Source: Actinoplanes aureus (lineage in GTDB: Bacteria > Actinomycetota > Actinomycetes > Mycobacteriales > Micromonosporaceae). From it: a DNA stretch of 64,000 nucleotides. Positions 12,721 to 29,642 of the stretch are shown in pieces. The stretch spans positions 1 to 64,000 of the forward strand of contig NZ_JADQTO010000020.1 of assembly GCF_015704865.1 (NCBI RefSeq). Direction: 5' to 3'. Below the pieces are notes generated by a model. It did no database searches and was not told the origin of the DNA. It saw only the letters and a program-made list of their open reading frames with translations. The position numbers and the translations under genes were made by a program. The number at the start of each line of letters is the position of its first letter. Position 1 is the stretch's first letter.

Positions 12721-13683
12721 TCAGTCGTTCACCAGGGAGTCCAGCAGGGGGCCGGCCGGGACGATGCCGGTCGGGTTCAGCCACGGGTGCGTACGGAAAT
12801 AGTGGTTCTTGATCTGCCCGAAGTCGGTGGTCTCCCGGAACGCGGGCATCCGGTACAGGTCCCGGAAGTACACGCGCAACCGTGGGTAGTCCGCGATCCG
12901 GCGCAGGTTCGCCTTGAAGTGGGTGAAGTAGACCGCGTCGAAGCGGGCCAGCGTGACGTAGAACCGGATGTCGGGCTCGGTGAGCCGGTCCCCGAACAGG
13001 TACCGGCGGTCGGCCAGCCGTTCCTCGAGCTGGTCGAGCGCCTCGAACAACCGGCTGACCTCCCGCTCGTACTCCGCCTGGTTCCGGGCGAAGCCGCACC
13101 GGTACGGGCCGTCGTGCACCCGGGTGAAGAGGAACTCGTGGAACTCGTCGATCTCGGCGCGCGACTCCTCCGGATAGAGGTCGATCTCGTTGGTGGCGAA
13201 CTTGTCGAACGCGGTGGCCAGGTCGGTGCTCAGGGTCCGGTAGTCGTTGCAGACGATCCGGCCGGTGACGCGGTCCCAGAGGGCGGGCACCGAGACGTGG
13301 CTGTCGTAGTCGGGATCGGTCGCCTGGTACGCCTCGGAGAGGAAGGCGAAGCCGTTCACCTCGTCCAGCCCGTGTCCCTGGCCTTCGCGGAACGCCCACC
13401 CGCGACCGTCGCGCAGCGGGTCGGCGACCGAGATGGTGACCGCGTCCCGCAGGCCCTTCAGGTGCAGCACGATCGTGGAGCGCTGGGAGAACGGGCACGG
13501 CGCGGCCACGTACAGGTGATAGCGCCCGGGCTCGGCCGGGTAGCCGCTGGAACCGTCGGCGGTGATCCGCCCGCGGAACGCCGGATCGGTGCGTTGCAGC
13601 ACCTCACCGGCCCGGTTCTTGGGCAGGTAGGGTCCGAACTCGTCGAAGTCAGCCGGCGATGCGGCACGTGGGCTGACAGTCAT
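12721..13683 (-). CDS. Glutathionyl-hydroquinone reductase-like (Xi-class GST / ECM4-YqjG family) protein
   Basis: This 320-residue thioredoxin-fold/GST protein resembles the Xi class, which reductively cleaves glutathionyl-hydroquinones. It has a CPFSQR catalytic-Cys motif near residue 57 (the family usually has CPWAHR), the NDYRT segment, and the C-terminal GST region LFGDRLTEPDIRFYVTLARFD. Length fits the family (about 320). ATG at 13683 is chosen because it is preceded by GGAGG and overlaps the ABC-ATPase stop (ATGA, 13680-13683). As actinomycetes use mycothiol rather than glutathione, the true thiol is uncertain. As last gene of the cyclitol/terpenoid operon, it may protect against or process a quinone-type intermediate; that role is inference. 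Confidence 0.85.
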   Translation of the reverse strand: MTVSPRAASPADFDEFGPYLPKNRAGEVLQRTDPAFRGRITADGSSGYPAEPGRYHLYVAAPCPFSQRSTIVLHLKGLRDAVTISVADPLRDGRGWAFREGQGHGLDEVNGFAFLSEAYQATDPDYDSHVSVPALWDRVTGRIVCNDYRTLSTDLATAFDKFATNEIDLYPEESRAEIDEFHEFLFTRVHDGPYRCGFARNQAEYEREVSRLFEALDQLEERLADRRYLFGDRLTEPDIRFYVTLARFDAVYFTHFKANLRRIADYPRLRVYFRDLYRMPAFRETTDFGQIKNHYFRTHPWLNPTGIVPAGPLLDSLVND

Positions 13684-15374
13684 GGGTGGATACCTCCTGG
13701 GGGAACGGTAGCTGCGGGGGAGACGGCGGGTGGCGGCGGATTCCGGCGCCCGGGGGCGGCGGCGACCAGCGCCACGGTGTAGGGATGTGACGGCTTCTCC
13801 AGTGTCTCGGCGGCCGGGCCCTCCTCGACGGTACGGCCGTGCCGTAGCACCAGTACCCGGTCCGCCACCTGTCGGACCGCGCCGAGGTCGTGCGAGATGA
13901 ACAGGCAGCCGAGTCCCAGTTCGGCCTGTACGTCGACGATCAGCTGGAGAATCTGGGCCTGCACGGCGGCGTCGAGCGCCGAGGCCGGCTCGTCGCAGAT
14001 CAACAGATCCGGCCGGACCACGAAGGCCCGGGCCAGGACGACCCGCTGGCACTCGCCGCCGGACAGCTCCCGTGGTCGCCGGCGCAGCAGCGTGACGGGC
14101 AGGTGCACGAGGTCGGCGGCCTCGCGGACCCGCGCCGCGCGCTCCGACCGGCCGGTCAACCGTAGCGCGCGTACCGGTTCGGCGATCGCGTCACCGGCTC
14201 TCATCTGTGGATCCAGGGCCGCGTACGGATCCTGGAACACCAGTTGCGCGCGGCGCCGGAAGGCGCGCATGCCGGCACCGCGGAGCCCGGCCAGGTCCGC
14301 GCCGTCGAACAGCACCCGGCCGGCGGTGGGCGTGGTGAGCCGCAGCGCGAGCGCGGCCAGTGTGGACTTGCCGGCGCCGGACTCACCCACCACACCCAGG
14401 GTCTCGCCACGGTGGACGACCGCGCTGACGCCGTCGAGGGCCGGCACCGGCTCGTCGGCCCGGTGGGCCGGCGGGTAGATCCGGCTCACCCGGTCCAGCC
14501 GCAGCAGCTCAGCGGGCCGGCCACGCTTCTCCTGGCGCCCCTGCGCGCGGGCCGGCGGCAAGGCCGCCGACCCCGGTCGCAGCCGCGCGGTACGCAGGTG
14601 GGGCGCCGCCGCCATCAGGGACCGGGTGACCGGATGCTCGCCGGCGGAGGCCAGCCGCCGGATCGGGCCGGCTTCCACGGTCCGGCCGGCGGCCATCACG
14701 ACACCCCACTCGGCGCGCTCGATCGCCAGACCGACGTCGTGGGTCACCAGAATCAGGGTCCGCCCGGTGCCGGTGGTGACGGCGGCGAGGTCATCCAGAA
14801 CGCCGGCCTGCGCGACCACGTCGACGGCGCTTGTCGGCTCGTCCGCCAGGATGAGTTCGGGTTCGGCGGCCAGGGCCGCGGCGGCGAGGGCACGCTGGCG
14901 CATACCCCCGGAGAGCTCGTGCGGGTAGCGTGCCGCCACGCTTTCCGGGTCGGGCAGCCCGGCGGACCGCAGCAGGCCGATGGCCCGGCGACCGGCCTCC
15001 GCCCGCCCGGCCAGACCGTGGATCAGCAGCGCCTCGGCGACCTGCACGCCGATGGGCAGGACCGGGTTGAGCGCGACCGCCGGGTCCTGCGGGATGGTGC
15101 CGATCCGCCGGCCGCGCAGCCGGCGCCGGGTTGCCTCGTCCATCCGGTGCAGGGCGAGACCGTCGAACCAGATCTCGCCGCCGGTCCGCGCTTCCGGGGG
15201 CAGCAGGCCGGTGATGGCGGCCACCAGGGTGCTCTTGCCGGACCCGGACGGACCCAGGACGGCCACGGTGGTGCCGGCCGGCGCGTCGAGATCCACGCTG
15301 GTCAGGATCTCCGCGCCGGCGGCGGGGTACGACACGGTGAGGCCGCGGATCCGCAGCAGGGGCTCCGCCGTCAT
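13680..15374 (-). CDS. ABC transporter ATPase, fused DppD-DppF type (peptide/nickel family)
   Basis: This 564-residue protein carries two complete nucleotide-binding domains in one chain. The N half has Walker A GPSGSGKST, signature LSGGMRQR and Walker B ILADEP; the C half has GESGAGKST, LSGGECQR and LICDEP. The HPYT segment near the C terminus is typical of oligopeptide/dipeptide ATPases. It energises the two permeases encoded just upstream (ATGA overlap at 15371-15374) together with the lipoprotein at 17.2-18.8 kb, making a complete Dpp/Opp-like importer in one operon. Fused DppD-DppF ATPases are common in actinomycetes. The substrate is unknown. The poly-Pro/Ala tail is low complexity. Confidence 0.93.
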   Translation of the reverse strand: MTAEPLLRIRGLTVSYPAAGAEILTSVDLDAPAGTTVAVLGPSGSGKSTLVAAITGLLPPEARTGGEIWFDGLALHRMDEATRRRLRGRRIGTIPQDPAVALNPVLPIGVQVAEALLIHGLAGRAEAGRRAIGLLRSAGLPDPESVAARYPHELSGGMRQRALAAAALAAEPELILADEPTSAVDVVAQAGVLDDLAAVTTGTGRTLILVTHDVGLAIERAEWGVVMAAGRTVEAGPIRRLASAGEHPVTRSLMAAAPHLRTARLRPGSAALPPARAQGRQEKRGRPAELLRLDRVSRIYPPAHRADEPVPALDGVSAVVHRGETLGVVGESGAGKSTLAALALRLTTPTAGRVLFDGADLAGLRGAGMRAFRRRAQLVFQDPYAALDPQMRAGDAIAEPVRALRLTGRSERAARVREAADLVHLPVTLLRRRPRELSGGECQRVVLARAFVVRPDLLICDEPASALDAAVQAQILQLIVDVQAELGLGCLFISHDLGAVRQVADRVLVLRHGRTVEEGPAAETLEKPSHPYTVALVAAAPGRRNPPPPAVSPAATVPPGGIHP

Positions 15375-16219
15375 TGCACCGCCAGCCGATCCTGGGCCGC
15401 GCGGCCGAGCGCCGTGGTGGCGAGCACGGTGATGGCCACGGCCACGCCCGGGAAGGTGCTTAGCCACCAGGCTTCCGCCAGGTTGGCCCGGCCGGCCGCG
15501 GCGAGCATGCCCCAGTCGGCCGCCGGCGGGCGGGGACCGAAGCCCAGGAAGCTGAGCGAGGACGACTCCAGCATGGCGACACCGAAGCCGAGCACGGCCA
15601 GCGACAGTGCCGGCCCGCCGATGTTGGGCAACACGTGGCGCAGGAGCAGCCCGGCGGGCCGCACCCCGCTCACCGTCGCCGCCATGACGTACGGGCGGGT
15701 ACGCACGCGCAGGACGTCGCCCCGGACGAGGCGGGCGAACGTGGCGATGTTGGAGACGCCCACCGCGATCGCCAGCCGGGTGGGTGAGCTGCCGAGCACC
15801 GCGATCGCGCCGAGGGCGAGCAGCAACGCCGGGAAGGCGAGCATGATGTCGACGAAGCGCATCAGCACCGCGTCGACGGCGCCGTCGAACAGGCCGGCCA
15901 CCAGCCCGACGAGCGTGCCGGCCACCAGGGCGAGGAGGGTGGCGGCGGCGCCGACCAGCACGGACAGGCGGCTGCCGTGGATGATCCGGCTCAGCAGGTC
16001 CCGGCCGAGCTCGTCGGTGCCGAGCAGATGACCGTGCCCGGGAGGCAGCAGTGCCGCGTCGGGCGCCACCGCGTCCGGCGGATGCGGGGCCAGCAGGTCC
16101 GGCATCACCACGCAGGCCAGCACCGTCAGCAGGACCAGGCCGGAACCGATCAGTGTGGCCGGCGGCATTCGCCGCCGGGGGGCGTCGGGGCGGCGCTGCA
16201 ACGCCGCCAGCAGCGTCAT
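15371..16219 (-). CDS. ABC transporter permease, DppC type
   Basis: This 282-residue inner-membrane protein has an N-terminal membrane segment, a periplasmic part with the DppC hallmark LLGTDELGRDLLSR, and several further hydrophobic helices. An EAA-like loop lies around ARLVRGDVLRVR...YVMAATVSG, followed by RHVLPN and SSLSFLGFG, both typical of the family. I chose ATG at 16219 because it forms an ATGA overlap with the DppB-type permease stop; GTG at 16225 is possible and adds two residues. It would form a heterodimeric channel with the upstream DppB-type protein. It is part of the complete importer inside the terpenoid/cyclitol operon. Confidence 0.92.
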   Translation of the reverse strand: MTLLAALQRRPDAPRRRMPPATLIGSGLVLLTVLACVVMPDLLAPHPPDAVAPDAALLPPGHGHLLGTDELGRDLLSRIIHGSRLSVLVGAAATLLALVAGTLVGLVAGLFDGAVDAVLMRFVDIMLAFPALLLALGAIAVLGSSPTRLAIAVGVSNIATFARLVRGDVLRVRTRPYVMAATVSGVRPAGLLLRHVLPNIGGPALSLAVLGFGVAMLESSSLSFLGFGPRPPAADWGMLAAAGRANLAEAWWLSTFPGVAVAITVLATTALGRAAQDRLAVQ

Positions 16220-17193
16220 CGCCACACCGCCGTCGAGACGACCCGGGGATCGAGGTACGTGTAGAGCACGTCGACCAGCAGACTGATCAGGATCATCGTG
16301 ACACCGAGGAACGCGGCGATGCCCTGGAGCACCGGGTAGTCGTGGTGCTGGAGCGCGTTGACGATCAATCGGCCCAGCCCCGGCCGCCCGAAGATGGTCT
16401 CCGCGACGACGGCGCCGCCGAGCAGACTGCCCACCGTGGTTCCGGTCAGGGTGACCACCGGTACCGCGGTGTTGCGCAGCATGTGCCGTAACAGCACGCG
16501 GGTCCGGGTGGCGCCTTTGGCGCGCGCCATGAGCACGTACGACTCGCGCTCCGCGGTGCGCAGACCGGAACCGAGCACGTGGGCGATGACGCCGGCCAGC
16601 GGCAGCGCCAGCGTCACGGCCGGCAGGATGGTGGCGCGCGGTCCGGTACTGCCCAGGGCCGGAACCAGGCCGAGGTGGAACGAGAAGATCTGCAGCAGCA
16701 GCGTCGCCACCCAGTAGGCCGGCAGCGACATCGCCAGCACGGGCAGTCGCGACAGCACCGCCCGCAGCACGCGCGACCCGGTCAGCTGGCCGAGCACGGC
16801 GCCGCCGGCACCCAGGAGCAGGCCGAGGAGCAGTGCGGTGCCGGCCAGGGCCAGGCTCGGCCCGGCCGCCTCGGCGATCAGCGCGGTGACCGGCTCACCG
16901 GTCTGCAGGGACTGGCCGAGATCGCCCCGGAACAGCGCCGCCAGGAACGCCAGGTACTGATCCGGCAGCGGACGGTCCAGACGCAGCTCCTGGCGCAGGG
17001 CCGCCTCCCGCTCCGGATCGACGAAGGCGCCGCCGGTGCCCAGCATGATCTGCACCGGATCGCCGGGGATCAGGTGCACGATGCCGAACGCCACGGTCAC
17101 CACCCCGAGCAGTACCGGCACCGCGGCGTACAGCCGGCGCCGCAACATCCGCCACCGGATCCCGGACCGGTCACCCGGCCGGGGCCGCCTCAT
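16216..17193 (-). CDS. ABC transporter permease, DppB type
   Basis: This 325-residue protein is an integral membrane component of a peptide-type importer. It begins with a basic stretch and a first helix (AAVPVLLGVVTVAFGIVHLIPGDP), in which HLIPGDP is the DppB/OppB mark, followed by DLGQSLQTG and five more hydrophobic segments. The EAA loop YVLMARAKGATRTRVLLRHMLRN is well conserved. The ATG follows the TAG stop of the substrate-binding lipoprotein with no gap, and its own stop overlaps the next permease, so the importer genes are translated together. The transported solute cannot be inferred; a nutrient, a signal or a shunt product are all possible. Confidence 0.92.
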   Translation of the reverse strand: MRRPRPGDRSGIRWRMLRRRLYAAVPVLLGVVTVAFGIVHLIPGDPVQIMLGTGGAFVDPEREAALRQELRLDRPLPDQYLAFLAALFRGDLGQSLQTGEPVTALIAEAAGPSLALAGTALLLGLLLGAGGAVLGQLTGSRVLRAVLSRLPVLAMSLPAYWVATLLLQIFSFHLGLVPALGSTGPRATILPAVTLALPLAGVIAHVLGSGLRTAERESYVLMARAKGATRTRVLLRHMLRNTAVPVVTLTGTTVGSLLGGAVVAETIFGRPGLGRLIVNALQHHDYPVLQGIAAFLGVTMILISLLVDVLYTYLDPRVVSTAVWR

Positions 17194-18801
17194 CTACCGA
17201 TCCACCCAGGTGTCGTAGAACTGCGGCAACCCTTGCGCGTCGAATGCGATCCCGCGCACCGCCTTGTTCACCGCCAGCAGGTACGTCGGGTTGTAGACCG
17301 GAATGGCCAGGGCCTGCTCGGCGATCCGTTGCTGTGCCCGGTGGTAGCTGTCCTCCCGGACGGCGGGTTCGGTGGTCGCCGCGCCGGCCGCCAGAGCGTC
17401 GGCGAGGGTGCCGTCCGGGATGATCGGCGGACGGCCTCCGGCCGAGGACTGCAGCACGGTACGCAGCACGTCCGCGTCGGCGCGCAGGAAGCTGATGTCG
17501 CTCATCTCCCAGTCCCCGCGGCTCTGACTCGCGATCACGTCGCCGACCGGCGCCGGGTCGAGCAGCACCTCCACGCCGACCGCCCGCAGCTGCTGCTGCA
17601 CGAGCTGGGCGAGCAGGTCCCGCTGTTCCCGGGCCGGTGACACGTAGCTCCACCGCAGCGACAGCCGTTTCCCGGCCCGGGAGCGGATGCCGTCGGCACC
17701 GACCGGCCAGCCGGCCGCGTCGAGCATGCGGGCCGCCTCGGTGGCCGTGGGTTGCGTCGACGTCGCCAGGTACCCCGGTGTGGTCGGCGTCAGCACGCTG
17801 CCGGCCCGGGTGTATCGGTCCTGGTAGAGGGTTTTCACGATCTGCGCCGTGTCGATCGCCCGGCTCACCGCCCGGCGCAGCGCGACGTCGTCCCACGGCT
17901 CCTTGACGCTGTTGACGAACAGGCTGTAAGCGATGCCGGCCTGCTCACGCCGGTGTACCGGGAATCCCTCCCGCTCGAGCGCGACGGCGTCCCGCGGTGC
18001 CACGGCGCCGGCCGCGTCGATCTGGCCGCTGCGCAGGCTGCCGCTGCGTACTCCGTTGTCCGAGGCGATCGTGACAACCACCTTCTCCAGGAAGGCGTCG
18101 CCCTGGTGCGCGGCGAACCGGGGAGCCCACCGGTAGCCGGCGCGGCGCGCGAGCGCGATTCGTTGCTGCGGGACGTACTCGGCCACGGTGAACGGTCCAC
18201 TACCGACAATCGTGCGGCAGGTGGCCTGCGGTCCCGCCGCGAACGACGCCGGCGCCTGCAGGCCCAGGAACGCGGTGGACGCCGCCTGGAGGAATCCCGC
18301 GTTGGGCCGGCTGAACCGCACGACCACGGTCCGGTCGCCGGACACCGTGGTGCCGGTGTAACCGGCCAGCATCCCGGCCGCCAGCAGGGACTTGGTGGCC
18401 GGGTCGGCGATCCGGTCGAAGTTCGCCTTGACCGCGGCCGGGGCGACCGGTGACCCGTCGCTGAAGGTGACGCCGGTGCGCAGCGTGAACGTGTATGCGG
18501 TGGCGCGCGGGTCCACCGTCCACGACTCGGCCAGCCACGGGACCAGGGCGCCGTTCCCGGGATCCTGAGCCACCAGCGAGTCGACGACGCCGCGGCCGGT
18601 GAGCAGGGCGGCGGCGGCCGGCGACTGATGCGGGTCGAGGCAGCCCGGATCGCTGTCGGTGGCGAGCGTGAGCGTGCCGCCGGGACGTGGCGTGGCGGAG
18701 CCGCCACTCGGCTCCGACGGTGCCGAACACCCGGCGAGGATCAGTGCGGCGACGGCCGGTATGGCGAGCGCGCGTACCGGACGACGGATGCCGAGTCTCA
18801 C
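17194..18801 (-). CDS. Solute-binding lipoprotein, family 5 (DppA/OppA-like)
   Basis: This 535-residue exported lipoprotein is the substrate receptor of the ABC importer. It has a signal peptide with lipobox LILAGC (lipidated Cys near residue 23) and family-5 marks: LTLATDSDPGCLDP, LAESWTVD, YTFTLRTGVTFSDGSPV and VALRRAVSRAIDT. I chose GTG at 18801: it has GGGAGG at the right distance, gives a standard lipoprotein signal and overlaps the monooxygenase stop by GTGA (18798-18801). Its place directly after the FAD monooxygenase and before the permeases ties import to the pathway. Family-5 proteins bind peptides, nickel and other small molecules, so the ligand stays open. Confidence 0.92.
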   Translation of the reverse strand: MRLGIRRPVRALAIPAVAALILAGCSAPSEPSGGSATPRPGGTLTLATDSDPGCLDPHQSPAAAALLTGRGVVDSLVAQDPGNGALVPWLAESWTVDPRATAYTFTLRTGVTFSDGSPVAPAAVKANFDRIADPATKSLLAAGMLAGYTGTTVSGDRTVVVRFSRPNAGFLQAASTAFLGLQAPASFAAGPQATCRTIVGSGPFTVAEYVPQQRIALARRAGYRWAPRFAAHQGDAFLEKVVVTIASDNGVRSGSLRSGQIDAAGAVAPRDAVALEREGFPVHRREQAGIAYSLFVNSVKEPWDDVALRRAVSRAIDTAQIVKTLYQDRYTRAGSVLTPTTPGYLATSTQPTATEAARMLDAAGWPVGADGIRSRAGKRLSLRWSYVSPAREQRDLLAQLVQQQLRAVGVEVLLDPAPVGDVIASQSRGDWEMSDISFLRADADVLRTVLQSSAGGRPPIIPDGTLADALAAGAATTEPAVREDSYHRAQQRIAEQALAIPVYNPTYLLAVNKAVRGIAFDAQGLPQFYDTWVDR

Positions 18802-20207
18802 GATGTCTTCCTCCCGGTGGCGGGGTCGCGGGGGAGACGCTGGGGCATCGCCTCCGGGGGAAAGGGTGGGGGTGGGGGCGGCGAATCGGTGGTGGTCAGC
18901 ACCTTGCCGACGATGCGGGGCGCCAGCAGCCGGCCGGCCGGTGCGTCCAGGGTGAAGGACTGGAGCAGCGCCTTCGTGACCGCGGGCCGGTGCACCGCGG
19001 CCCGGCCCAGCCGGTTCGTGTACCACCGCTGCAGACGCTCAACCGGCCCGGGTCGCGTGTCGGTGAGGTAGCGGGCGTCCTGACCCGAGGCGATGGCCCA
19101 GGCGTCGTCGGCGCACCCCGCCACCGCGCGTTGGAGGCGGCGGGTCAGGTCCGGCGCGGATCCGTGGCGGGCCATCATCTCCCGCACCACGTTCGCGGAG
19201 CGGGCGGCCACTGACATGCCGTGCCCGTACGCCGGGTTGTAGGAGCGTGCCGCGTCGCCGAGCACCACGAAACCCTCCGGGCCACGGCGCAGCCCTTCGA
19301 AGTGGCGCCACCGGTTGGCCAGCTTGCGGAATCCGCGTATCGGGCCGATCGGGGTGGCCTGTGCCAGCGCCTCCGCCAGGACGGGGTGCCGCAGGCTCGC
19401 CACGAAGGCGTCGAAGCCGGGCTCGTCGGTCGGCGGGTTCTGGCCCCGTACGCCGGAGAGGCTGAGCAGCCAGCGGTCGTCCTCGACGGGCAGCAGCACA
19501 CCACCGCGGCCGGAGCCGTCCGGGTCGGCCTGTAGATAGATCGCTCCGAGCCGGCGCCACGCGTCCGGCAGCCGCAGGGTGCGGGTGGCGTACCCGACGC
19601 CGGCGTCCACGACCGTGGTGGCCACCGGGGCCGTACCCAGTTCGGCGAGCCAGGCGATCGCGGCCGAGGTGGCACCGGTCGCGTCGAAGACCATTGTGGC
19701 CGGCTCGTCGCGGAAGGCGCCGGTGGTGCGGTCCCGCAGCCGGGCGCCGGTGACCCGGGTCGCGTCGCCCATCAGCCCCGCCACCTCCGTCCCGGTCAGC
19801 AGTTCGATCCGGCCGCCGGCGAGCAGCCGTTCCCGGACTACCGTATCGATGAGTGACCGGGTGCCGCTAAGCAGGAACTGAATCTCCGGGATGGCGGGCA
19901 GCCAGCCGTGCGGGCTCAGGGTGTGCACCTGAGCCGGCATGCTGAGACGGTGCGCCCCGCTGTCGCACAGGGCCTGTGTCGTGCCCGGCAGCAGTGCGTC
20001 GATCCAGCGGGCGCCGGAGCCGAGGAGCAGGTGCGCGTGGCCGGCCTGCGGCAGGCCGGCCCGGCGGTCGGTGCCCGCACCGGTCAGGTGGTCGCGTTCG
20101 ACAAGGGTCACCCGGTCGAAGAACGGTGTCAGGGCGGCAGCGGTCAGGCTGCCCGCCATGCCGGCGCCGAGTACCAGGGCGCGCCGGCCGGTCAGATCTT
20201 CCGCCAT
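18798..20207 (-). CDS. FAD-dependent monooxygenase, LasC/MonCI/XiaO-like epoxidase family
   Basis: This 469-residue flavoprotein has an N-terminal Rossmann motif VLGAGMAGSLTA (near residue 11), a RAGLPQAGHAH segment like that of polyether epoxidases of the LasC/MonCI type, and the second FAD motif VLGDAARSYNPAYGHGMS near residue 305. Related bacterial enzymes epoxidise olefins of polyketides or of prenyl chains (XiaO in xiamycin). Next to a prenyltransferase and a Pyr4-like cyclase, it would plausibly epoxidise the terminal double bond of a prenylated head group to set up cyclisation. That role is inferred from family and context; a hydroxylase or a dehydrogenase of the geranylgeranyl-reductase type cannot be excluded. 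The C-terminal tail is proline-rich. It overlaps the cyclase gene by 16 nt. Confidence 0.82.
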   Translation of the reverse strand: MAEDLTGRRALVLGAGMAGSLTAAALTPFFDRVTLVERDHLTGAGTDRRAGLPQAGHAHLLLGSGARWIDALLPGTTQALCDSGAHRLSMPAQVHTLSPHGWLPAIPEIQFLLSGTRSLIDTVVRERLLAGGRIELLTGTEVAGLMGDATRVTGARLRDRTTGAFRDEPATMVFDATGATSAAIAWLAELGTAPVATTVVDAGVGYATRTLRLPDAWRRLGAIYLQADPDGSGRGGVLLPVEDDRWLLSLSGVRGQNPPTDEPGFDAFVASLRHPVLAEALAQATPIGPIRGFRKLANRWRHFEGLRRGPEGFVVLGDAARSYNPAYGHGMSVAARSANVVREMMARHGSAPDLTRRLQRAVAGCADDAWAIASGQDARYLTDTRPGPVERLQRWYTNRLGRAAVHRPAVTKALLQSFTLDAPAGRLLAPRIVGKVLTTTDSPPPPPPFPPEAMPQRLPRDPATGRKTS

Positions 20208-20887
20208 GGTGATGCGCCCTCCGCTCGGAAGCGCCGGTAGAGCAGGACGATGTAGACGATGTCGAGGACCACCTCCGCGGCGATCATCTGGTGCACCAGC
20301 CAGCGGTTCGGATAGAAGATGATCAAGCCGATGGCGCCGGACACGTCCACGACCGTCTTGAGGATGGCGATGTACATGGTCTGGCCCGCCGTGGATCCAC
20401 GGGTCAGGAGCATCTTGATGAACATCGCCTCCATGAAGACGACGACGAACACCGTGGTGTAGACACCCAGCCGGTCGTCGAACTCACGCGTGGCGAGCGG
20501 CATGAAGGTGAGGGCGAACAGGCTCCAGCCGGCGATCAGCCAGCCGTACCCCCGGCCGGACACCGTGGGGAAGTCCCGGCGGCCGTACTTCACGGCCAGG
20601 AAGAGGATCACCAGGTTGAGCGGGATCCAGAAGTACAGCGTGATCCGCATCTGCGGGTAGATCGGGTAGATGAAGGCGTAGGTGATCTCCCACGCGACGT
20701 TGGCGCAGACCGCGAGCACCGGGATGGCCGGCACCTTCTCCTTGATCTCGAGGCGCAGCATCATGATGTAGACGGCGAAGGTGCAGATGCCCACGATCGC
20801 GAACGCGACGGTCGGTACCAGCGCGTCGGCGTGCTGGCGGGGATCCATCACCGGGGGCAGCTCGGCCGCCAGGGTCATCGGAGTCAC
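20192..20887 (-). CDS. Integral membrane terpene cyclase-like protein (Pyr4/PaxB family)
   Basis: This protein of about 231 residues has around seven hydrophobic helices and no soluble domain, as in the fungal Pyr4/PaxB/AusL meroterpenoid cyclases. The family mark is an acidic residue in a WE motif after the second helix, seen here as NVAWEITYAFIYP (Glu 64 counted from ATG 20878; Pyr4 uses Glu63). A second acidic residue in the last helix corresponds to LDIVYIVLLYRR (Pyr4 Asp218). GTG at 20887 overlaps the UbiA stop (GTGA) and is preferred; ATG at 20878 is the alternative. Such cyclases protonate the epoxide of a prenylated substrate and close rings. Neighbouring UbiA and epoxidase-like genes match that use. 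I place the family from motifs and topology only. Confidence 0.75.
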   Translation of the reverse strand: MTPMTLAAELPPVMDPRQHADALVPTVAFAIVGICTFAVYIMMLRLEIKEKVPAIPVLAVCANVAWEITYAFIYPIYPQMRITLYFWIPLNLVILFLAVKYGRRDFPTVSGRGYGWLIAGWSLFALTFMPLATREFDDRLGVYTTVFVVVFMEAMFIKMLLTRGSTAGQTMYIAILKTVVDVSGAIGLIIFYPNRWLVHQMIAAEVVLDIVYIVLLYRRFRAEGASPWRKI

Positions 20888-21933
20888 GTGCGGGACACCT
20901 CGGGCATCGGCCGGGCGCGGTCCGCGAAGTGCTCGCCGAGCCGCTGCCATAGGAACAGGACGGTGTAGAACAGCAGCGGCACGAGTCCGCCGAGGACGGC
21001 CGCGGTGAACCCGTACCGGGCCGCTGCCGCGGCCAGCAGGGCGGCCGGCACCAGATAGCCGGTGGCGGCGGCGTGCACCGTCGCGCTGCGCGCGATGCGG
21101 TTCGCCTGCACCGGGTCGTCGGCTGACGGCGGGTCGTGCAGCAGCTTGCGGCACAGCATGGCGGCCATCGGCGCGGTCCCGAGCAGTGCGATGCCCGCGA
21201 TGAGAGGTACGGTCCCGGTCACCGTCACCACGACGAGACACAGGTAGGCGGCCAGTTGCAGTCCGGTGAACAGCCAGGCCGCGCGCCGCGGACCGAGCGT
21301 GTTCGGCAGGGTCAGTTTGCCCACCGAGCGGTCCGAGTCCCCGTCACAGAAGTTCATCACCATCATCCGGGCGGTCATCACCAGGAACAGGAAGCCGGTG
21401 ACGGCGAGCAGCAGCGGCGGCAGGGTGCCGATCTGCAGCAGGCACGCGAGCGCGGGGCACAGAACGGTCAGCACGGCCGCGGTCGTCACCTCGCCGGCCG
21501 CGCGATAGTTGAGCCGGATCGGCGGTGCCGTGTAGAACCAGGCCAGCGCGACGATGACCACACAGACGAGCCGGGTGGTCAGCGTCGGCATGAACGCGAT
21601 CTGCGCGATCGAGACGAACAGCAGCACGAAGGACGCGGCCAGGCTGACCCCGGCCGGCAGCAACCCCTGCGCGAGCACCTGACTGCCACCGGTCCAGGCG
21701 GTCGGGCCGGTGTGCGCGCTGTCCGCCTCCAGGTCGAAGTACTCGTTGCAGTACTGGGTCATCAGGTGCGTGGTGGACACGAACGCCTGCGCCACCAGCC
21801 AGGGCCCGATCAGGAAGGGATGTCCCAGGTAGACCACCACGGCGATACCGCAGGTCACGGTCAGGACGCTCTCCAGCAGGAACTTCGGCCGGCCGAGGCG
21901 TACCAGCAGGACGAAGTCGCGGGCCAGGCTCAT
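20884..21933 (-). CDS. UbiA-family polyprenyl transferase
   Basis: This 349-residue membrane protein joins a prenyl diphosphate to an acceptor ring. Both Asp-rich motifs are present: NEYFDLEAD near residue 63 (NxxxDxxxD) and NFCDGDSD near residue 200, and about eight to nine hydrophobic helices separate them, as in UbiA/MenA enzymes. The length is slightly above the typical 290-310. The start ATG at 21933 overlaps the VOC-protein stop (ATGA) and the stop overlaps the cyclase start (GTGA). The polyprenyl donor probably comes from the synthase at 27.8 kb. The acceptor is predicted to derive from the C7 cyclitol branch of the same operon, which is inference. Confidence 0.92.
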   Translation of the reverse strand: MSLARDFVLLVRLGRPKFLLESVLTVTCGIAVVVYLGHPFLIGPWLVAQAFVSTTHLMTQYCNEYFDLEADSAHTGPTAWTGGSQVLAQGLLPAGVSLAASFVLLFVSIAQIAFMPTLTTRLVCVVIVALAWFYTAPPIRLNYRAAGEVTTAAVLTVLCPALACLLQIGTLPPLLLAVTGFLFLVMTARMMVMNFCDGDSDRSVGKLTLPNTLGPRRAAWLFTGLQLAAYLCLVVVTVTGTVPLIAGIALLGTAPMAAMLCRKLLHDPPSADDPVQANRIARSATVHAAATGYLVPAALLAAAAARYGFTAAVLGGLVPLLFYTVLFLWQRLGEHFADRARPMPEVSRT

Positions 21934-22493
21934 CGATTCGTCCAGGGCTGGTCCGGTTGGTAGAGCCGGGCGTCCGTGTCCTGCTCGAAGGGCGCCCCGG
22001 CCGGCAGGTTGATCAGCTCCAGGTGCATGCCCCAGGGCGTGGTGAAGTAGACCCAGCGGTCACCGGCGATCGGGCCGTCCTCGATGGTCTCCGGCTTGCC
22101 GAGGATCCGTACCCCGGGCTGCTCCTGCAGGTAGGCCACCGCCCGGTCCACGTCGTCCACATGGATGGCGAGGTGGTGACCGCCCCAGTCGCTGTTGCGC
22201 GGCAACGTCTGCCGCTGGTCCGGGGAGTCGTACTCGAACAGCTCGAGATTGGTGACCGGCCCCAGCCGCAGCATCGCGATGCGGGCCACCGCCTCCGGGT
22301 GCACGCCCAGCTTGCGTGTCATCCAGTCACCGCCGTCCGGGTCGTCCACCCGGTCCAGCTGATAGACCAGCTCAGCGCCGATCACGTCGACGAAGAAGCG
22401 GACCGCCTGAGCGAGGTCGGGCACGGTGTAGGCGACGTGGTGCACGGCGCGTGCGCCGGGGATGCCGATCGGGTCGCGTGTATCAGAGGACAT
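21930..22493 (-). CDS. VOC (glyoxalase/dioxygenase fold) family protein; candidate cyclitol epimerase
   Basis: This 187-residue protein carries the vicinal-oxygen-chelate fold with its metal-ligand pattern: His in HHVAYTV, Glu in LELFEY, His in GGHHLAIHV and Glu in MHLELIN. In valienamine/cetoniacytone pathways a VOC enzyme (ValD/CetB) epimerises 2-epi-5-epi-valiolone to 5-epi-valiolone. Because a sugar-phosphate cyclase of that class is encoded in the same operon, an epimerase role is the leading idea. Ring-cleaving or hydroxylating VOC dioxygenases are alternatives. The gene overlaps the SDR stop by 11 nt and the UbiA start by 4 nt. Confidence 0.85.
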   Translation of the reverse strand: MSSDTRDPIGIPGARAVHHVAYTVPDLAQAVRFFVDVIGAELVYQLDRVDDPDGGDWMTRKLGVHPEAVARIAMLRLGPVTNLELFEYDSPDQRQTLPRNSDWGGHHLAIHVDDVDRAVAYLQEQPGVRILGKPETIEDGPIAGDRWVYFTTPWGMHLELINLPAGAPFEQDTDARLYQPDQPWTNR

Positions 22494-23265
22494 TCGCGTA
22501 CTCCTGGTTGGGAATGGCGCTCATCAGGGTCAGTCCGCCGTCGATCGTCAGGGCGGCTCCGGTGATGTAGCCGGCGTCGGGGTGGAGCAGGTGGGCCACG
22601 AGAGCGGCCACTTCCCGGGCCCGTCCGGGCCGCCCCGCCGGGATCGCCGGCCGGTCGATCCCGGCCGCGTCGACGTCGTCGGGTACGCCGTTCATCGGCG
22701 TCGCGGTCTCGCCGGGGCTGACCGCGTTCACGCTGATGCCATGCCCGGCCAGCTCCAGCGCCATCACCCGGGTCAGCTGCAGGAGCCCGCCCTTCGCGGC
22801 GCAATACGCCGAGCCGCCCCGGATCGGCACGGCGTCGTGCACGGACGTGACGTTGACGATGCGGCCACCGCGGCCCTGCGCCACCATCGCCCGCGCGGCG
22901 GCCTGGGCGCAGGCGAACGGTCCGGTGAGGTCGACCGTCAGCAGCTCGGTCCAGCCGTCGAGCGTCTCGTCGAGGAAGTTCGACCGGCGGTTCACCGCGG
23001 CGTTGTTGACGAAGGCGTCCAGGCCGCCGAGCTGCTCGGCGGCCTGGCTCACGGCGGCTGCGGCCGCGGCTGGCTCGCGTTGGTCCAGCGGGAACGGGAT
23101 CGCCCGGCGCCCGGCCGCCTGGACCAGCGCGGCGACCTCCTCGGCGGAGGCTTTGTTGATCCGGTAGCCCACGCCGACGTCGAAGCCCTGTTCGGCCAGG
23201 TACACGGCGGTGGCCTTGCCGATGCCGGAGCTGGCCCCGGTCACGATCGCGACCCGGCTGGTCAT
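22483..23265 (-). CDS. Short-chain dehydrogenase/reductase (SDR)
   Basis: This 260-residue classical SDR has the cofactor motif TGASSGIG near residue 9, NNAAVN near residue 90, a catalytic Ser in VTSVHD and the YxxxK pair in YCAAKG near residue 155; a PGETATPM segment follows. It is complete for its family (about 250). Basic residues after the second strand are few, so NAD(H) or NADP(H) preference is not clear. Within the operon it would oxidise or reduce a ring hydroxyl/ketone of the cyclitol intermediate, perhaps toward a quinol. It is coupled by ATGA to the upstream cupin gene. Confidence 0.9.
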   Translation of the reverse strand: MTSRVAIVTGASSGIGKATAVYLAEQGFDVGVGYRINKASAEEVAALVQAAGRRAIPFPLDQREPAAAAAAVSQAAEQLGGLDAFVNNAAVNRRSNFLDETLDGWTELLTVDLTGPFACAQAAARAMVAQGRGGRIVNVTSVHDAVPIRGGSAYCAAKGGLLQLTRVMALELAGHGISVNAVSPGETATPMNGVPDDVDAAGIDRPAIPAGRPGRAREVAALVAHLLHPDAGYITGAALTIDGGLTLMSAIPNQEYANVL

Positions 23266-23921
23266 GCGCGCACCTCGTATCCCGCGTCGTCGAGGCTCGC
23301 CGCCCCGAGGTAGCCGTAGATGGTCCGGGTGGTCACGCCCGGGTCGGTTCGGTATCCGTGCCATTCCCCGGCCGGGATCAGGACCGCGTCGCCCGGGCCG
23401 AGCCGGACCGGGCCGCTCTCGGTGAGGTGTTCGCCGCCGCCCTCGACGACCATGAAGAACTCCTCCGCTGAGGCGTGCCGGTGCAGTTCGTGCCGCCCGT
23501 CGGGAGCGAACGTCGAGGTGGCCACGACGAGTGCGGTGCTGCCCGAGGTCGCCGCGCAGACGAGCCACCGCACCCGCATGTCGGCGAAGCCGCCGCCGGT
23601 GTCGAGCACCTCCGACGAGGCCTGGTCGAGACGGCCGGGAACCGCGTCCGGTGCCGGCTGTGCCGCGGCCCGGGCCTGGACGACGAGCGCCCGCGCGCCG
23701 TCCGCACCGGCCACGAGGCCGGCGCGAACACCCGGCGGTACGAACCGGGTGGCGCCGGTACCGAGTCCGGACAGGTCGCCCGCCAGGACGACGACGGCCG
23801 ATTCCGTTCCCTCGCCGGCCTCCGTGACCGCCTCGCCGGGCGCCAGTGAGAGAAGGTCCACCCGGCCGTGGCGACCGGTCAGCCGCTCGATGCGGTGGTC
23901 CACTCGGGCCGGCCGGTTCAT
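23262..23921 (-). CDS. Bicupin protein with one intact metal site
   Basis: This 219-residue protein holds two cupin folds. The C-terminal fold (about 125-215) has the full metal set: ELHRHASAEEFF (His, His, Glu) and GEWHGY (His). The N-terminal fold (about 15-95) lacks these ligands and is probably structural. Cupins of this kind act as isomerases, epimerases, dehydratases or Fe/Mn dioxygenases, so the exact reaction is open. It is coupled to the upstream alcohol dehydrogenase and the downstream SDR by 4-nt overlaps, which suggests that all three work on the same ring intermediate. Confidence 0.82.
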   Translation of the reverse strand: MNRPARVDHRIERLTGRHGRVDLLSLAPGEAVTEAGEGTESAVVVLAGDLSGLGTGATRFVPPGVRAGLVAGADGARALVVQARAAAQPAPDAVPGRLDQASSEVLDTGGGFADMRVRWLVCAATSGSTALVVATSTFAPDGRHELHRHASAEEFFMVVEGGGEHLTESGPVRLGPGDAVLIPAGEWHGYRTDPGVTTRTIYGYLGAASLDDAGYEVRA

Positions 23922-24997
23922 TCCGCTCCGCCCGGTTGCCCGGTGAGGTCCAGGACGACCTTCGGCCGGGCGCCCCGGTCTCCGGCGAGCACCTCGAAGG
24001 CCTCGGCGCACCGGTCCACCGGTACCGCCGCGGCGAGCAGCCCCGCACCGTCGAGAACGCCGTCGGCGAACAGCTGGACGACGTCCGGGTAGTGGTCGAT
24101 GCCGTGCTGGATGCCGAGTACCGACAGGCCGCGCAGGGCCACGTCGGCCGGGGTCACGGCCACCGGCTCGTAGGCCACCCCGACGACGGCCACCCGGCCG
24201 CCGGGCTCGGTGAGCTCCAGGGCGTGCGGGAACGCCTTCGGGGCGCCGGATGCCTCGATCACCAGGGAGAACCCGGGGACGGCGGCATCGGCGGGCACGG
24301 CCTGTGCACCGTATCGTTCCGCGGCGGCCAGCCCGGCCGGTTCCACTCCGACGGCGGTGACCGCCGCGGTCACGCGCCGGGCCAGCTGCACCGCGAGCAG
24401 CCCGATCGTGCCGGTGCCGAGCACCGCCACCCGGTCGGCCGGCCCGGCCGAGGTCCGGGCCAGGGCCTCGGCGACGGTGACCGCGGGCTCGATGAGCGTC
24501 GCCCACGGCTGGGCCATGTGAGCCGGGATCCGGTGCAGGGCGTGCTGGGGGACCCGGATGTACTGGGCCGCGGCGCCCAGCTGCTCGTAGAGGCCGACCT
24601 CGCGCATCCGCCGGCACTGTTGCCGGCGGCCGCGGGCACAGCTGACGCATCCGCCGCAGGGGATCATCGTCTGCCCGGCGACCGGGTCACCCGGCGAGAG
24701 GTCGCGCACGTCGGCGCCGGTGGCGACCACCTCGCCCCACCACTCGTGGCCGAAGACGTGCGGGAAGTGGGCCTGGCCGGACCGCAGATAGCCGGAGGTG
24801 CCCTCGAAGAGCTCCAGGTCCGTGCCGCAGAGCCCGACGTAGTGCGGGCGCACGAGGACTTCACCGGGCACCGGCGGTGGCACGGGAAGCGTGATCTCCG
24901 CCAGGCGGCGCACTCCCACCAGCGCGGTCGCCGTCATCGACCCGGCCGGCCAGCCGTCCGCGACCGGCCGGGACTTCGGTTGCCGTGTGTCAGTCAT
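23918..24997 (-). CDS. Zinc-dependent alcohol dehydrogenase (MDR superfamily)
   Basis: This 359-residue protein matches the sorbitol/threonine dehydrogenase type. Visible are the catalytic-zinc Cys in GLCGTD, the GHEWWG pair (His, Glu), the structural-zinc loop CGGCVSC...QQC with four Cys, and the Rossmann loop GTGTIG near residue 195. All key ligands are present. Relatives in aminocyclitol pathways (ValN- and AcbL-like) oxidise or reduce cyclitol hydroxyls, which fits a sugar-phosphate cyclase in the operon. It is coupled by ATGA on both sides, to cupin genes. The substrate is inferred from context only. Confidence 0.9.
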   Translation of the reverse strand: MTDTRQPKSRPVADGWPAGSMTATALVGVRRLAEITLPVPPPVPGEVLVRPHYVGLCGTDLELFEGTSGYLRSGQAHFPHVFGHEWWGEVVATGADVRDLSPGDPVAGQTMIPCGGCVSCARGRRQQCRRMREVGLYEQLGAAAQYIRVPQHALHRIPAHMAQPWATLIEPAVTVAEALARTSAGPADRVAVLGTGTIGLLAVQLARRVTAAVTAVGVEPAGLAAAERYGAQAVPADAAVPGFSLVIEASGAPKAFPHALELTEPGGRVAVVGVAYEPVAVTPADVALRGLSVLGIQHGIDHYPDVVQLFADGVLDGAGLLAAAVPVDRCAEAFEVLAGDRGARPKVVLDLTGQPGGAE

Positions 24998-25365
24998 ATG
25001 ACCGGCCTCCTTGCCGGCAGCCGCCCGGCGGTCTCACGGCTCACTACCGCGACCCGGAGCAGCTTCAGCGGTCCGGCGAGGACGGTCAGGGTCGGCCGGT
25101 CCCCGGCGGGCACCAGGACGACGTCGCCGGAGGTCAGTTCGCCGGCGTCTCCGCCCAGCGCGGCGCGTCCCTCGCAGATCACCCAGGCGGTCTCGTGCCC
25201 GTCCGCTTCGACGAGTTCGAGGTGGTCGCCGGTGGCCAGCCGAAGATGGTCGATCGCCTGGCACTCGCTGTGCAGCATCCCGCGCCGGGTCAGGCAGCGT
25301 ACGAGCCGCCGGTGCCCCGGATCCGCGGTCAGTCCGGACGGGGCGTCACCGGTGGTGACGATCAT
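24994..25365 (-). CDS. Small cupin-fold protein without an obvious metal site
   Basis: This 123-residue protein has a single predicted cupin barrel: HLELVEADGHETAWVICEG for the first part and LTSGDVVLVPAG for the second. The usual HxH...E and C-terminal His of a metal cupin are missing, so it is probably non-catalytic, or uses a non-metal mechanism as some epimerase-type cupins do. Its ATG (25365) overlaps the larger cupin upstream and its stop overlaps the alcohol dehydrogenase start (ATGA both times). A partner role for the neighbouring cupin is possible. Confidence 0.7.
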   Translation of the reverse strand: MIVTTGDAPSGLTADPGHRRLVRCLTRRGMLHSECQAIDHLRLATGDHLELVEADGHETAWVICEGRAALGGDAGELTSGDVVLVPAGDRPTLTVLAGPLKLLRVAVVSRETAGRLPARRPVI

Positions 25366-26084
25366 GCCGGGTTCCCTTCGGTCACCAGTAGTTCCAGCAC
25401 GTAAAGTTCGAGACCGTCCGGTCCCGCGGTGAGGGTCGCGCCGGCACCCAGCGGCAGGGTCAGCGACACCTCGGGCGCGAGTTCGGCGGAGGCCGAGCCG
25501 GAGGTCGCGGTGCCGGAGCCGTCGATGACGAAGTAGGTGAGCTCGCGACCGTCGGCGGCCACGGTGTCGGCCTGCCCCGGTGCGAGTCGCTGCCGGGCGA
25601 TCCGGCGCAGTGGGCCGGTCAGCACGGACCGGGGATCGATCTCGCCCGGTTCGCCCAGATGGAACACCTTGGCTGCGGTCATCGCCTCGTTCCTCTCCGA
25701 TCGCCCGGCCGGCCCGCGCCCGAACACGGCGGCCGTGGCGGGACCCAGCAGTTCCACCACCAGCCAGCTCAGCGGCTCCGGGCCGGTGTTGAGCAGCCCG
25801 TGCCGCGTGCCGAGCCCGGTGAGCACCACGTCGCCGGGTCCGACCGGGGTGTGGTGGCCATTCAGGATGATCTCGCCGTGCCCGGACAGCAGGATGTACA
25901 CCTCTTCGGTCCGGGTGTGCAGGTGTTCGCCGCTGAGCCCGCCCGGTGGCAGGCGGGCCCACTCGACCGCCTCCCAGGCTCCGGTCAGCTCGGGGCCGCG
26001 GACGAAGCACTTCCACCAGGACACGCCCGCGGCGCCGTGGACACCGTGGACCTCGGCCGGCGCCGCCGTATCAGCGATGATCAT
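25362..26084 (-). CDS. Bicupin protein next to the sugar-phosphate cyclase
   Basis: This 240-residue protein has two cupin folds. The N-terminal one (about 35-120) is metal-competent: GEHLHTRTEEVYILLSG supplies His, His and Glu, and GTRHGLLN supplies the last His. The C-terminal fold (about 135-235) lacks these residues. Its ATG at 26084 overlaps the cyclase stop (ATGA), so it is probably the next protein made after the cyclase. A dehydratase, isomerase or oxygenase acting on the valiolone-like ring would be plausible; no specific family member is recognised. Confidence 0.82.
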   Translation of the reverse strand: MIIADTAAPAEVHGVHGAAGVSWWKCFVRGPELTGAWEAVEWARLPPGGLSGEHLHTRTEEVYILLSGHGEIILNGHHTPVGPGDVVLTGLGTRHGLLNTGPEPLSWLVVELLGPATAAVFGRGPAGRSERNEAMTAAKVFHLGEPGEIDPRSVLTGPLRRIARQRLAPGQADTVAADGRELTYFVIDGSGTATSGSASAELAPEVSLTLPLGAGATLTAGPDGLELYVLELLVTEGNPA

Positions 26085-27232
26085 GTCGGTACCGCCTCTC
26101 GACGCCGGTGCCGCAGCGCGCTGCGCAGTTCCTCGTCGGACACGTCGTTGAGGAAGGTCGCCGCGCCGATGCCGACCGGTACGGGCAGCCGCTGACGGCC
26201 GTCCCGATGCCGGACCGTGTCCGTCATCGCCCGCCGGAGCAGATCCCCGTCGAGCAGGTGATGGTCGGTCGGCAGGGCGAGCCGGTGCAGCAACTCCAGA
26301 ATCCGGCGCCCGGCCTTGTCGTCCAGCACCCCACGACTGGCCGCCACCGTGGTGAACAGGGCGATGTCGATGGCGACCGTCTCGCCGTGCAGCAGTTCGC
26401 CGTCGGCGCGCATCTCGAGCGCCGGTCCCACCGAGTGACCGAAGTCGACGAGGCGGTCCAGTTCGCGTTCCCACAGGTTCGGTTCGAGTTCGGCGAGCAT
26501 GCCCTGCACCGAGCGGTGCAGCACCTGCCGCGCCACCCGCTCGCCGGTGGGGGAGGAACCCTGGAACCTCTCCTCGATCAATAGCTCGCCGTGCTCTTCC
26601 AACAGCTCGAAGAGCCGCTCGTCGCGTACCACGGCCAGCTTGACGATCTCGGCCATGCCGTTGCGCAGGTGCCGCTCGTCGAGCGAGGCGAGGAACCGGC
26701 GGTCCAGCAGTACGCCGGCCGGCTGCTGGAAGCTGCCCAGGCGGTTCTTGTGAGCGCCGTGGTTGATGCCGGTCTTGGCGCCGATCGCCGCGTCCACCTG
26801 GCCGAGCAGGGTGGTCGGGACCCGGACGTGCGGCACGCCCCGCCGGTACATCGACGTGGCGACGCCGACCAGATCGAGCAGCACTCCGCCGCCGAACGAG
26901 ATGACCGGCTCGCGGCGCCGGTCTAGGCCAAACCGGTCGAACTCCGCGATCACGGTGAGCACGGTCTCCATCACCTTGTGCTGTTCACCAGGTGGGAGCA
27001 CTACATATTGACATTCCAGGCCGTGCCACTCGAAATATTCTCGGATTCTCGTTCCGTAAAGCGCGTTCACGGATTCATCGAGCACCGCGATTCGTCGTCT
27101 GGAACGCGTTTCCGTGCGGTTTCCGCACGTCGCGAGTTCCGGACTGGCCCGGTCGAGAATGTCGTCGCTGAACGTAACTTCGTAGTCGGCGAGTGCTTGT
27201 GCGCTGACGCGGTAGGTCTCAAGTCCTATCAT
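26081..27232 (-). CDS. Sedoheptulose 7-phosphate cyclase-type enzyme (2-epi-5-epi-valiolone synthase class)
   Basis: This 383-residue member of the dehydroquinate-synthase superfamily is of the sugar-phosphate-cyclase branch, which turns sedoheptulose 7-phosphate into C7 cyclitols using NAD and a metal. Marks are LPPGEQHK, the NAD loop FGGGVLLDLVG, MYRRGVPHVRVPTTLLGQVDAAIGAKTGIN, NRLGSF, NGMAEIVKLAVV, and the metal ligands in FGHSVGPALEM and LLHGETVAID. This pattern fits EEVS/EVS-type enzymes better than true AroB, but the exact product among 2-epi-5-epi-valiolone, 2-epi-valiolone and others needs an alignment. ATG at 27232 is used; TTG at 27241 is the alternative. It heads the long operon that runs to 12.7 kb, so the C7 ring is the likely first committed unit. 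Confidence 0.9.
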   Translation of the reverse strand: MIGLETYRVSAQALADYEVTFSDDILDRASPELATCGNRTETRSRRRIAVLDESVNALYGTRIREYFEWHGLECQYVVLPPGEQHKVMETVLTVIAEFDRFGLDRRREPVISFGGGVLLDLVGVATSMYRRGVPHVRVPTTLLGQVDAAIGAKTGINHGAHKNRLGSFQQPAGVLLDRRFLASLDERHLRNGMAEIVKLAVVRDERLFELLEEHGELLIEERFQGSSPTGERVARQVLHRSVQGMLAELEPNLWERELDRLVDFGHSVGPALEMRADGELLHGETVAIDIALFTTVAASRGVLDDKAGRRILELLHRLALPTDHHLLDGDLLRRAMTDTVRHRDGRQRLPVPVGIGAATFLNDVSDEELRSALRHRRREAVPT

Positions 27233-27603
27233 CTGTTCCAAGCTTCGCTGTCGCGGCGGCCGCCGGTGGGCGGGCGCGTCTGACGAGGGATCATCGGCCC
27301 TGTTCGGCTTGTCCGGGCGGGAGTGAAGCGAGGGATGTCCGCTTTGCCCGGTGGGTCGAACGCCTGTCGTTACGGGTAGGCGTCGGAGCGTGATGGCTGC
27401 TCAGCGTGGACAGAGTGCGCTGGTGCGCTCCGGAAGACTCCGAAAAGTGACATGCCGAAGTGGCTGTCTATTCAACCAGGTCATTTCTCGTTACCCCGTG
27501 GTAGATCGGGCCCGCGTCGGGCGACCAAGTCATTCGAGTCAATCTCGTCGCTCGGCAGGCTAATTGTTCCGGGGCGGCCTTGGCAACAGCGCACACGCCA
27601 TTG

Positions 27604-29527: not shown

Positions 29528-29642
29528 CCGGTGAGCTATCCATCGCCGTAGTGGACGCAGGAGCCGGCCGCCGGTGGGTAGGATCATGGAATCGATCGTC
29601 CACATTCGAGACGCGCCGATAAACGGGGATTGTTCGAGTTTC

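Follow-up and report, generated by a model that had tools for sequence, protein, structure and literature searches.

A candidate epoxide-initiated Pyr4-like membrane terpene cyclase in a predicted C7-cyclitol meroterpenoid gene cluster of Actinoplanes aureus

The window analysed here, a stretch of 64,000 nucleotides from Actinoplanes aureus (contig NZ_JADQTO010000020.1 of assembly GCF_015704865.1), carries between genes for a UbiA-family prenyltransferase and a FAD-dependent monooxygenase (FMO) the gene of a small membrane protein, which is probably a Pyr4-like transmembrane class-II-type terpene cyclase, initiated by an epoxide and catalysing a late step of a C7-cyclitol meroterpenoid pathway akin to that of BE-40644. 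More tentatively, the enzyme may stand for a distinct epoxide-triggered Pyr4-like branch, in which a D94-type aspartate has given way to asparagine and a tryptophan to threonine and helix 5 has gained an acid (S153E/D), and which would serve an FMO-primed C7-cyclitol meroterpenoid with a chain from the cluster's own long-chain-class synthase. The protein is an ordinary member of the Pyr4 family in an unusual cluster, and this cluster is a BE-40644-type sister with a remodelled cyclase.

The open reading frame (ORF) is real and encodes, as the original prediction had it, a protein of about 230 residues: it runs on the minus strand from a GTG start at 20887 to a stop ending at 20192, its product has 231 residues, and its G+C content by codon position (0.58/0.40/0.94) is the coding pattern expected in a window of 71.7% G+C (an opposite-strand ORF at 20291-20968 gives 0.90/0.44/0.62). 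Comparison with the orthologue of Paractinoplanes ovalisporus gave a nonsynonymous divergence (dN) of 0.052 and a synonymous divergence (dS) of 0.315 (dN/dS about 0.17), and the gene is therefore under purifying selection. The Pyr4/PaxB-like family call, made from the sequence alone, was confirmed by the profile search proposed with it, in which Pyr4-TMTC (PF25129) was the sole Pfam family matched (E 3.2e-18, 66.7 bits, curated cut-off 27), with no competing family; a search of the NCBIfam profiles returned no match. Identity to members outside its own clade is 21-36%, and ten columns are invariant across a 27-sequence alignment of cyclases. The Pfam score lies far outside what chance would give, and places the protein in the Pyr4 family.

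Residue counts given below refer to 59 bacterial cyclase loci, G008 and G218 having been left out as falling below the Pfam cut-off; all 59 match a confirming profile, which was itself built from 28 of them, and two of the 59 proteins are identical. The ruler to the numbering of DmtA1, the membrane cyclase of the drimentines, was provided by G1060 and G1176, which have the printed DmtA1 spacings (W29-E60 31, E60-D94 34, E60-D214 154, D214-Y217 3) and all nine residues discussed for that enzyme; in G1060 the cyclase gene has CDPS and SQS_PSY genes beside it, an arrangement that matches dmtABC. The catalytic glutamate of helix 2 (E60 in DmtA1) is E67 of the window protein and the late aspartate (D214) is its D209. 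Both acids had been pointed out beforehand, in NVAWEITYAFIYP and LDIVYI respectively, and both are widely kept, E67 in 59/59 homologues and D209 in 57/59, the exceptions being Micromonospora tarensis (Gly) and G1038 (Asn). Altogether six of the nine DmtA1 residues are retained (Y33 as Y40, N56 as N63, W59 as W66, E60 as E67, D214 as D209 and Y217 as Y212), and Y40, N63, W66 and Y212 are, like E67, found in every homologue.

What the original residue account missed is the loss, in this clade, of the equivalents of W29 and D94, both needed by DmtA1. Three DmtA1 residues are changed in the window cyclase: W29 to T36, D94 to N91 and E133 to P130. Threonine 36 is confined to the window clade, that is, the window protein and two orthologues (3/59), N91 is found in this clade plus three other loci, and glutamate at the E133 position occurs only in the Dmt-type G1060 and G1176 (2/59). 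Residues seen in this clade only are V149 (Asn in 51/59), E or D at 153 (Ser in 55/59) and V180 (Gly in 55/59). Five near-invariant positions have thus changed together while the glutamate set was retained; milder differences, at positions 44, 114 and 170, are common to a few other members.

The two orthologues came from a search with peptide patterns taken from the cyclase, run on one genome per species over 84,980 species, and belong to P. ovalisporus LDG1-06 (91% identity) and M. tarensis STR1S-6 (83%). In the former, 17/17 queried window proteins are found in order at 78-91% identity, and the cyclase gene likewise lies between UbiA and FMO. M. tarensis has 16/17, its cluster being without FMO, and the best FMO-like protein of its genome is 30% identical to that of the window; its UbiA match is split over two frames (L047:8950-9989) and its cyclase has glycine at position 209, a state that may reflect decay of the pathway or a sequencing error. 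A fourth cluster, G415, from the window's own genus, encodes a 2-epi-5-epi-valiolone synthase (EEVS)-type protein at 54% identity to that of the window, a zinc alcohol dehydrogenase (58%), a short-chain dehydrogenase (SDR; 67%), a VOC protein (69%), UbiA (57%) and the cyclase (37%), plus cupins. The order EEVS, cupin B, small cupin, zinc alcohol dehydrogenase, cupin A, SDR, VOC, UbiA, cyclase is common to all four genomes, and their cyclases form one clade (support 97/94, 98/94 and 96/94 in 28-, 24- and 22-row trees, 94 in a quick 59-row tree), in which the window cyclase clade sits on a long branch (1.02 in the 28-row tree).

The nearest published relative of the window cluster is that of BE-40644, also from Actinoplanes. 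According to PMC5133447, Actinoplanes sp. A40644 builds this compound from sedoheptulose 7-phosphate via EEVS, farnesylation presumably being due to a UbiA-superfamily enzyme, and the farnesyl chain is cyclised last; its prenyltransferase is called similar to MenA in PMC3227686, and PMC12453296 places it, beside drimentines and xiamycins, among the compounds formed by integral membrane cyclases. The window shares the headgroup cyclase type, the UbiA enzyme and the membrane cyclase, a set drawn here from published descriptions and not from A40644 sequences. G415 has the same gene set beside a full mevalonate operon: its block is preceded by genes for a polyprenyl synthase, mevalonate kinase, diphosphomevalonate decarboxylase, phosphomevalonate kinase, type 2 isopentenyl diphosphate isomerase, and 3-hydroxy-3-methylglutaryl-CoA (HMG-CoA) reductase and synthase, and by a KAS III-like gene. 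The A40644 cluster contains mevalonate genes as well. The G415 cluster looks like a BE-40644-type one, and the window cluster like its relative with a different tail end: it adds an FMO and a polyprenyl synthase of its own, whereas no FMO like that of the window was found within the 20-kb region around the G415 cyclase. The window cluster has no mevalonate operon: HMG-CoA reductase is matched only once in the genome, and this match lies on contig C24, not C23.

In the pathway that we infer from gene content, synteny and homology, the EEVS-type cyclase would convert sedoheptulose 7-phosphate to 2-epi-5-epi-valiolone, which the products of the VOC, dehydrogenase and cupin genes would epimerise, oxidise and dehydrate to a hydroxymethyl-cyclohexenone or hydroquinone headgroup. 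A trans-polyprenyl diphosphate synthase (IDS) would supply the prenyl diphosphate and the UbiA enzyme would attach the prenyl group to the headgroup. The FMO would then epoxidise the terminal alkene of the chain, and E67 of the Pyr4-like enzyme, aided by Y40, N63, D209 and Y212, would protonate this epoxide, so that the chain closes to fused rings.

The case for an epoxide rests on the D94 position and its association with the FMO. In the portions of PMC6173783 that treat these enzymes, DmtA1 is proposed to protonate an alkene and to need D94, its D94A variant giving no complementation and D94N a very limited product amount, and XiaE and XiaH are without D94, an epoxide being proposed for them. 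Asparagine stands at this position in six of the 59 loci (the window trio, G246, G779 and G1303) and aspartate in the other 53. FMO homologues lie near the cyclase also in G779, G246, G1303 and G1042a; a window-like FMO accompanies 5/6 N loci vs 1/53 D loci (G1042a), or, counted the other way, N is found in five of six FMO-bearing loci and D in 52 of the 53 without (two-sided Fisher p 7e-6 over all 59 loci, with no correction for kinship). The search was aimed at window-like FMOs in regions of 6.5 kb (G300), 7.8 kb (G363), 8.4 kb (G520), 11.5 kb (G1038) and up to about 20 kb, the shorter of which could have let some FMO escape. On the 59-row tree, which includes the column in question, two changes to N are needed, forced by well-supported branches. 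We regard this as moderate evidence, drawn from sequence comparison, that the neighbouring FMO makes an epoxide on which the window cyclase then acts; that G246, G779 and G1303 are of the XiaE/XiaH type is a lead only. In G779 (L042:17597-19633) part of a tryptophan 2,3-dioxygenase is matched just ahead of the FMO and in frame with its ORF, by fusion or by chance.

Several observations weigh against this account. The Pfam match of the FMO is weak (32.2 bits), and hydroxylation of an aromatic headgroup would be an equally ordinary role for it. The link between N and FMO is weakened because a single section of the tree, of 14 rows, contains all six loci with an FMO, and within it Fisher p is 0.026, again without kinship correction; moreover, M. 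tarensis keeps N91 with no FMO in its cluster, and G1042a has an FMO but D91. The W29A exchange inactivates DmtA1, whereas the window clade has threonine there, and E153, at a position that is serine in 55/59, is a new acid and a possible stand-in for D91. In the 59-row tree the grouping of G415 and the window clade is marked as a possible long-branch artefact, although it held in two smaller trees. Finally, structure tests yielded nothing usable: an AlphaFold2 model from a three-sequence alignment has seven helices, but with a mean pLDDT of 47.8 it is too poor to place the two acids in a common cavity, and solved structures gave no match at E up to 10 with the single sequence and one irrelevant match (E 0.68) with a cyclase profile. 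In the sequence itself, hydropathy gave six peaks above 1.4, with helix 4 weak, and helices 2 and 3 alone show conservation that significantly follows one face.

The new acid at position 153 leaves the alkene route open, and the best-surviving alternative, which we nevertheless hold doubtful, keeps the same pathway and enzyme class and has a plain alkene protonated as in the drimentines, E153 replacing D91 and the FMO hydroxylating the headgroup or acting after cyclisation. It would account for the restriction of E/D at 153 to the window clade (3/59), for the M. tarensis cluster with its cyclase and no FMO, and for the closest other cluster, G415, which retains D91 and is without a window-like FMO, and it agrees with the description of BE-40644 as a non-rearranged drimane meroterpenoid (PMC12453296, in part). 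Yet the only carriers of N91 outside the window clade, G246, G779 and G1303, each have an FMO, D94N left DmtA1 with very little product, as cited above, and the M. tarensis pathway looks damaged. That the cyclase has left terpene cyclisation for isomerisation, oxa-ring closure or non-catalytic substrate binding, its changed residues marking the shift, we consider unlikely: the five altered near-invariant positions, including that of the W29 needed by DmtA1, and the long branch are what such a shift might leave behind, but E67, Y40, N63, W66 and Y212 are retained, the gene is under purifying selection, and in P. ovalisporus it is still flanked by UbiA and FMO. That the protein belongs to some unrelated family of seven-helix membrane proteins, with WE and LD motifs by chance, is very improbable, since the low identity outside the clade and the lack of an NCBIfam match are set against the Pfam score without a competing family and the ten invariant columns.

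The genes around the cyclase were annotated over window positions 12721-32846 (Table 1).

Table 1. Predicted genes of the annotated part of the window, with the basis of each assignment.
Feature	Position	Strand	Basis
SBP_bac_5, two permeases, ABC ATPase, GST (downstream block)	12721..18801	minus	Pfam; synteny in L046, L047
FMO, predicted prenyl epoxidase	18798..20207	minus	Pfam DAO and FAD_binding_3, both slightly over cut-off
Pyr4-like transmembrane terpene cyclase, 231 aa	20192..20887	minus	Pfam PF25129 and conserved residues
UbiA-family membrane prenyltransferase, MenA-like	20884..21933	minus	Pfam UbiA, E 4.3e-18
VOC/glyoxalase-fold protein, predicted cyclitol epimerase	21930..22493	minus	Pfam Glyoxalase, E 6.1e-12
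SDR	22483..23265	minus	Pfam adh_short_C2, E 5.6e-57
Cupin protein A	23262..23921	minus	Pfam Cupin_2, E 6.2e-13
Zinc alcohol dehydrogenase, cyclitol dehydrogenase-like	23918..24997	minus	Pfam ADH_N, E 6.2e-26
Small cupin-like protein	24994..25365	minus	Sub-threshold cupin matches only
Cupin protein B	25362..26084	minus	Pfam Cupin_2, E 9.1e-19
EEVS-type sugar-phosphate cyclase	26081..27241	minus	4p53 'Cyclase' as top match among solved structures, E 8e-111, 373.9 bits
IDS	27786..28829	minus	Pfam polyprenyl_synt, E 2.9e-52; kept in L046, L047
SARP-type regulator (BTAD, NB-ARC, TPR)	29574..32846	plus	Pfam; homologous stretches past IDS, at the edges of L046, L047

Transcription on the minus strand runs from IDS through EEVS, cupin B, the small cupin-like gene, the zinc alcohol dehydrogenase, cupin A, SDR, VOC, UbiA and the cyclase to FMO, followed on the same strand by the genes for the solute-binding protein, two permeases, the ABC ATPase and GST, a block that accompanies the cluster in L046 and L047 as it does in the window. 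With the start codons chosen, each gene from EEVS through FMO overlaps its neighbour by 4 to 16 bases. The EEVS-type cyclase, UbiA and the membrane cyclase lie within one operon in the window. The position of the cyclase between UbiA and an epoxidase-like gene had been noticed from the start and holds, with overlaps of 4 and 16 bases respectively; the parallel then drawn with fungal meroterpenoid clusters is loose, since the headgroup gene is that of an EEVS-type sugar-phosphate cyclase, which brings the cluster close to the actinomycete route to BE-40644.

By Pfam alone, the EEVS-type protein would pass for a dehydroquinate synthase. Its best match among solved structures is 4p53 (373.9 bits), followed by 5tpr (246.1); none of the 14 further distinct chains listed exceeds 154.2 (3okf), and the majority of these carry the name 3-dehydroquinate synthase, under which 5tpr was also deposited. 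The protein of 4p53 is ValA. The best NCBIfam matches of UbiA are 1,4-dihydroxy-2-naphthoate polyprenyltransferases and that of the zinc alcohol dehydrogenase is scyllo-inosose 3-dehydrogenase, all below cut-off; the VOC protein we liken to CetB, which we take to be an epimerase, and a homologue of it also lies near EEVS in L076, L081, L082 and L083. The small cupin-like gene is found at the same place in L046, L047 and L040. As for the IDS, its best NCBIfam match, a mixed nonaprenyl/farnesyl/geranylgeranyl diphosphate synthase family at 247.5 bits, lies below the cut-off of 600, and this match was rejected as a guide to chain length. The protein is 47% and 43% identical to two other copies in the same genome and, like the two copies there that resemble it most, has an alanine five residues ahead of the first Asp-rich motif; by sequence it is of the long-chain class, although its product may also be C15.

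The idea that EEVS neighbourhoods generally carry UbiA and a membrane cyclase was tried and dropped: in 20 EEVS regions of other genomes, searched in enlarged form, neither was present, these regions having been picked for higher identity or an adjoining cupin from 48 EEVS places (E up to 1e-60; window, G434 and G415 excluded). Three loci (L100, L101, L103) have EEVS with cupins and VOC, without UbiA or cyclase, and the cyclitol submodule seems to be used there without a terpene.

Bacterial Pyr4-like cyclases have been less neglected than had been supposed: XiaE/XiaH and DmtA1 (PMC6173783) and TylF, GroF and ZigF (PMC13307353) have been published, and the latter paper includes a survey with 1107 candidates, its parts 1-2 of 3 naming no EEVS-linked group. 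The window cyclase shares with DmtA1 the family and the six retained residues, and differs from it, besides the three exchanges, in substrate class. With XiaE/XiaH of xiamycin biosynthesis, compared by description, it has in common the absence of the D94 equivalent (PMC6173783) and the proposal of an epoxidised substrate (excerpt of PMC5481743), but theirs has an indole headgroup. ZigF belongs to the same family and its cluster has UbiA and a polyprenyl synthase, yet its headgroup is a quinolone and its epoxidase a P450 (PMC13307353, same parts). Fungal Pyr4, PaxB and MacJ resemble the window cyclase by the Pfam profile, not by direct sequence comparison, and by the catalytic Glu and Asp (for Pyr4, PMC6173783), and differ in their polyketide or indole headgroups (PMC11109268, in part). 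For the ebo operon, an isoprenoid-cyclitol pathway with the UbiA-family EboC and the sugar-phosphate cyclase EboD has been proposed; compared by description, its six gene products named in the abstract of PMC5133447 include no Pyr4-like cyclase. In the open-access literature searched, BE-40644 was the sole bacterial EEVS-plus-UbiA product found, no paper paired valiolone with a terpene cyclase or EEVS with terpene and prenyltransferase, and valiolone together with meroterpenoid appeared only in a fungal paper (PMC5635028).

A further Pyr4-like cyclase is encoded elsewhere in the genome of the window (L045, G000:C24:83500-103400; 77.8 bits), with UbiA, two polyprenyl synthases and, by eye, an AMP-ligase-like ORF; the HMG-CoA reductase gene of the genome lies about 11 kb from it, and L045 is a second meroterpenoid cluster. 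In L041 (G412:C24:424500-444400) a cyclase gene stands beside genes for UbiA, an AMP-binding enzyme and a GATase fused to a chorismate-binding enzyme; this may be a meroterpenoid cluster of aminobenzoate type. Distant homologues (27-31% identity) lie on Nostoc and Streptomyces clavuligerus plasmids (NZ_CP040275.1, NZ_CP040295.1, NZ_CP045850.1), that of S. clavuligerus having no gene in the gene table, which is incomplete.

The window cluster is a candidate source of a new cyclitol-terpenoid, and the unusual active-site residues of its cyclase suggest the kind of starting tail that is accepted. A natural contrast is offered within one clade, between the BE-40644-like cluster of G415, with D91 and without FMO, and the window, with N91 and FMO; this comparison of one residue and one gene would make the alkene-versus-epoxide rule testable. 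If the rule is true, D or N at the D94 position would predict initiation by an alkene or an epoxide across the family.

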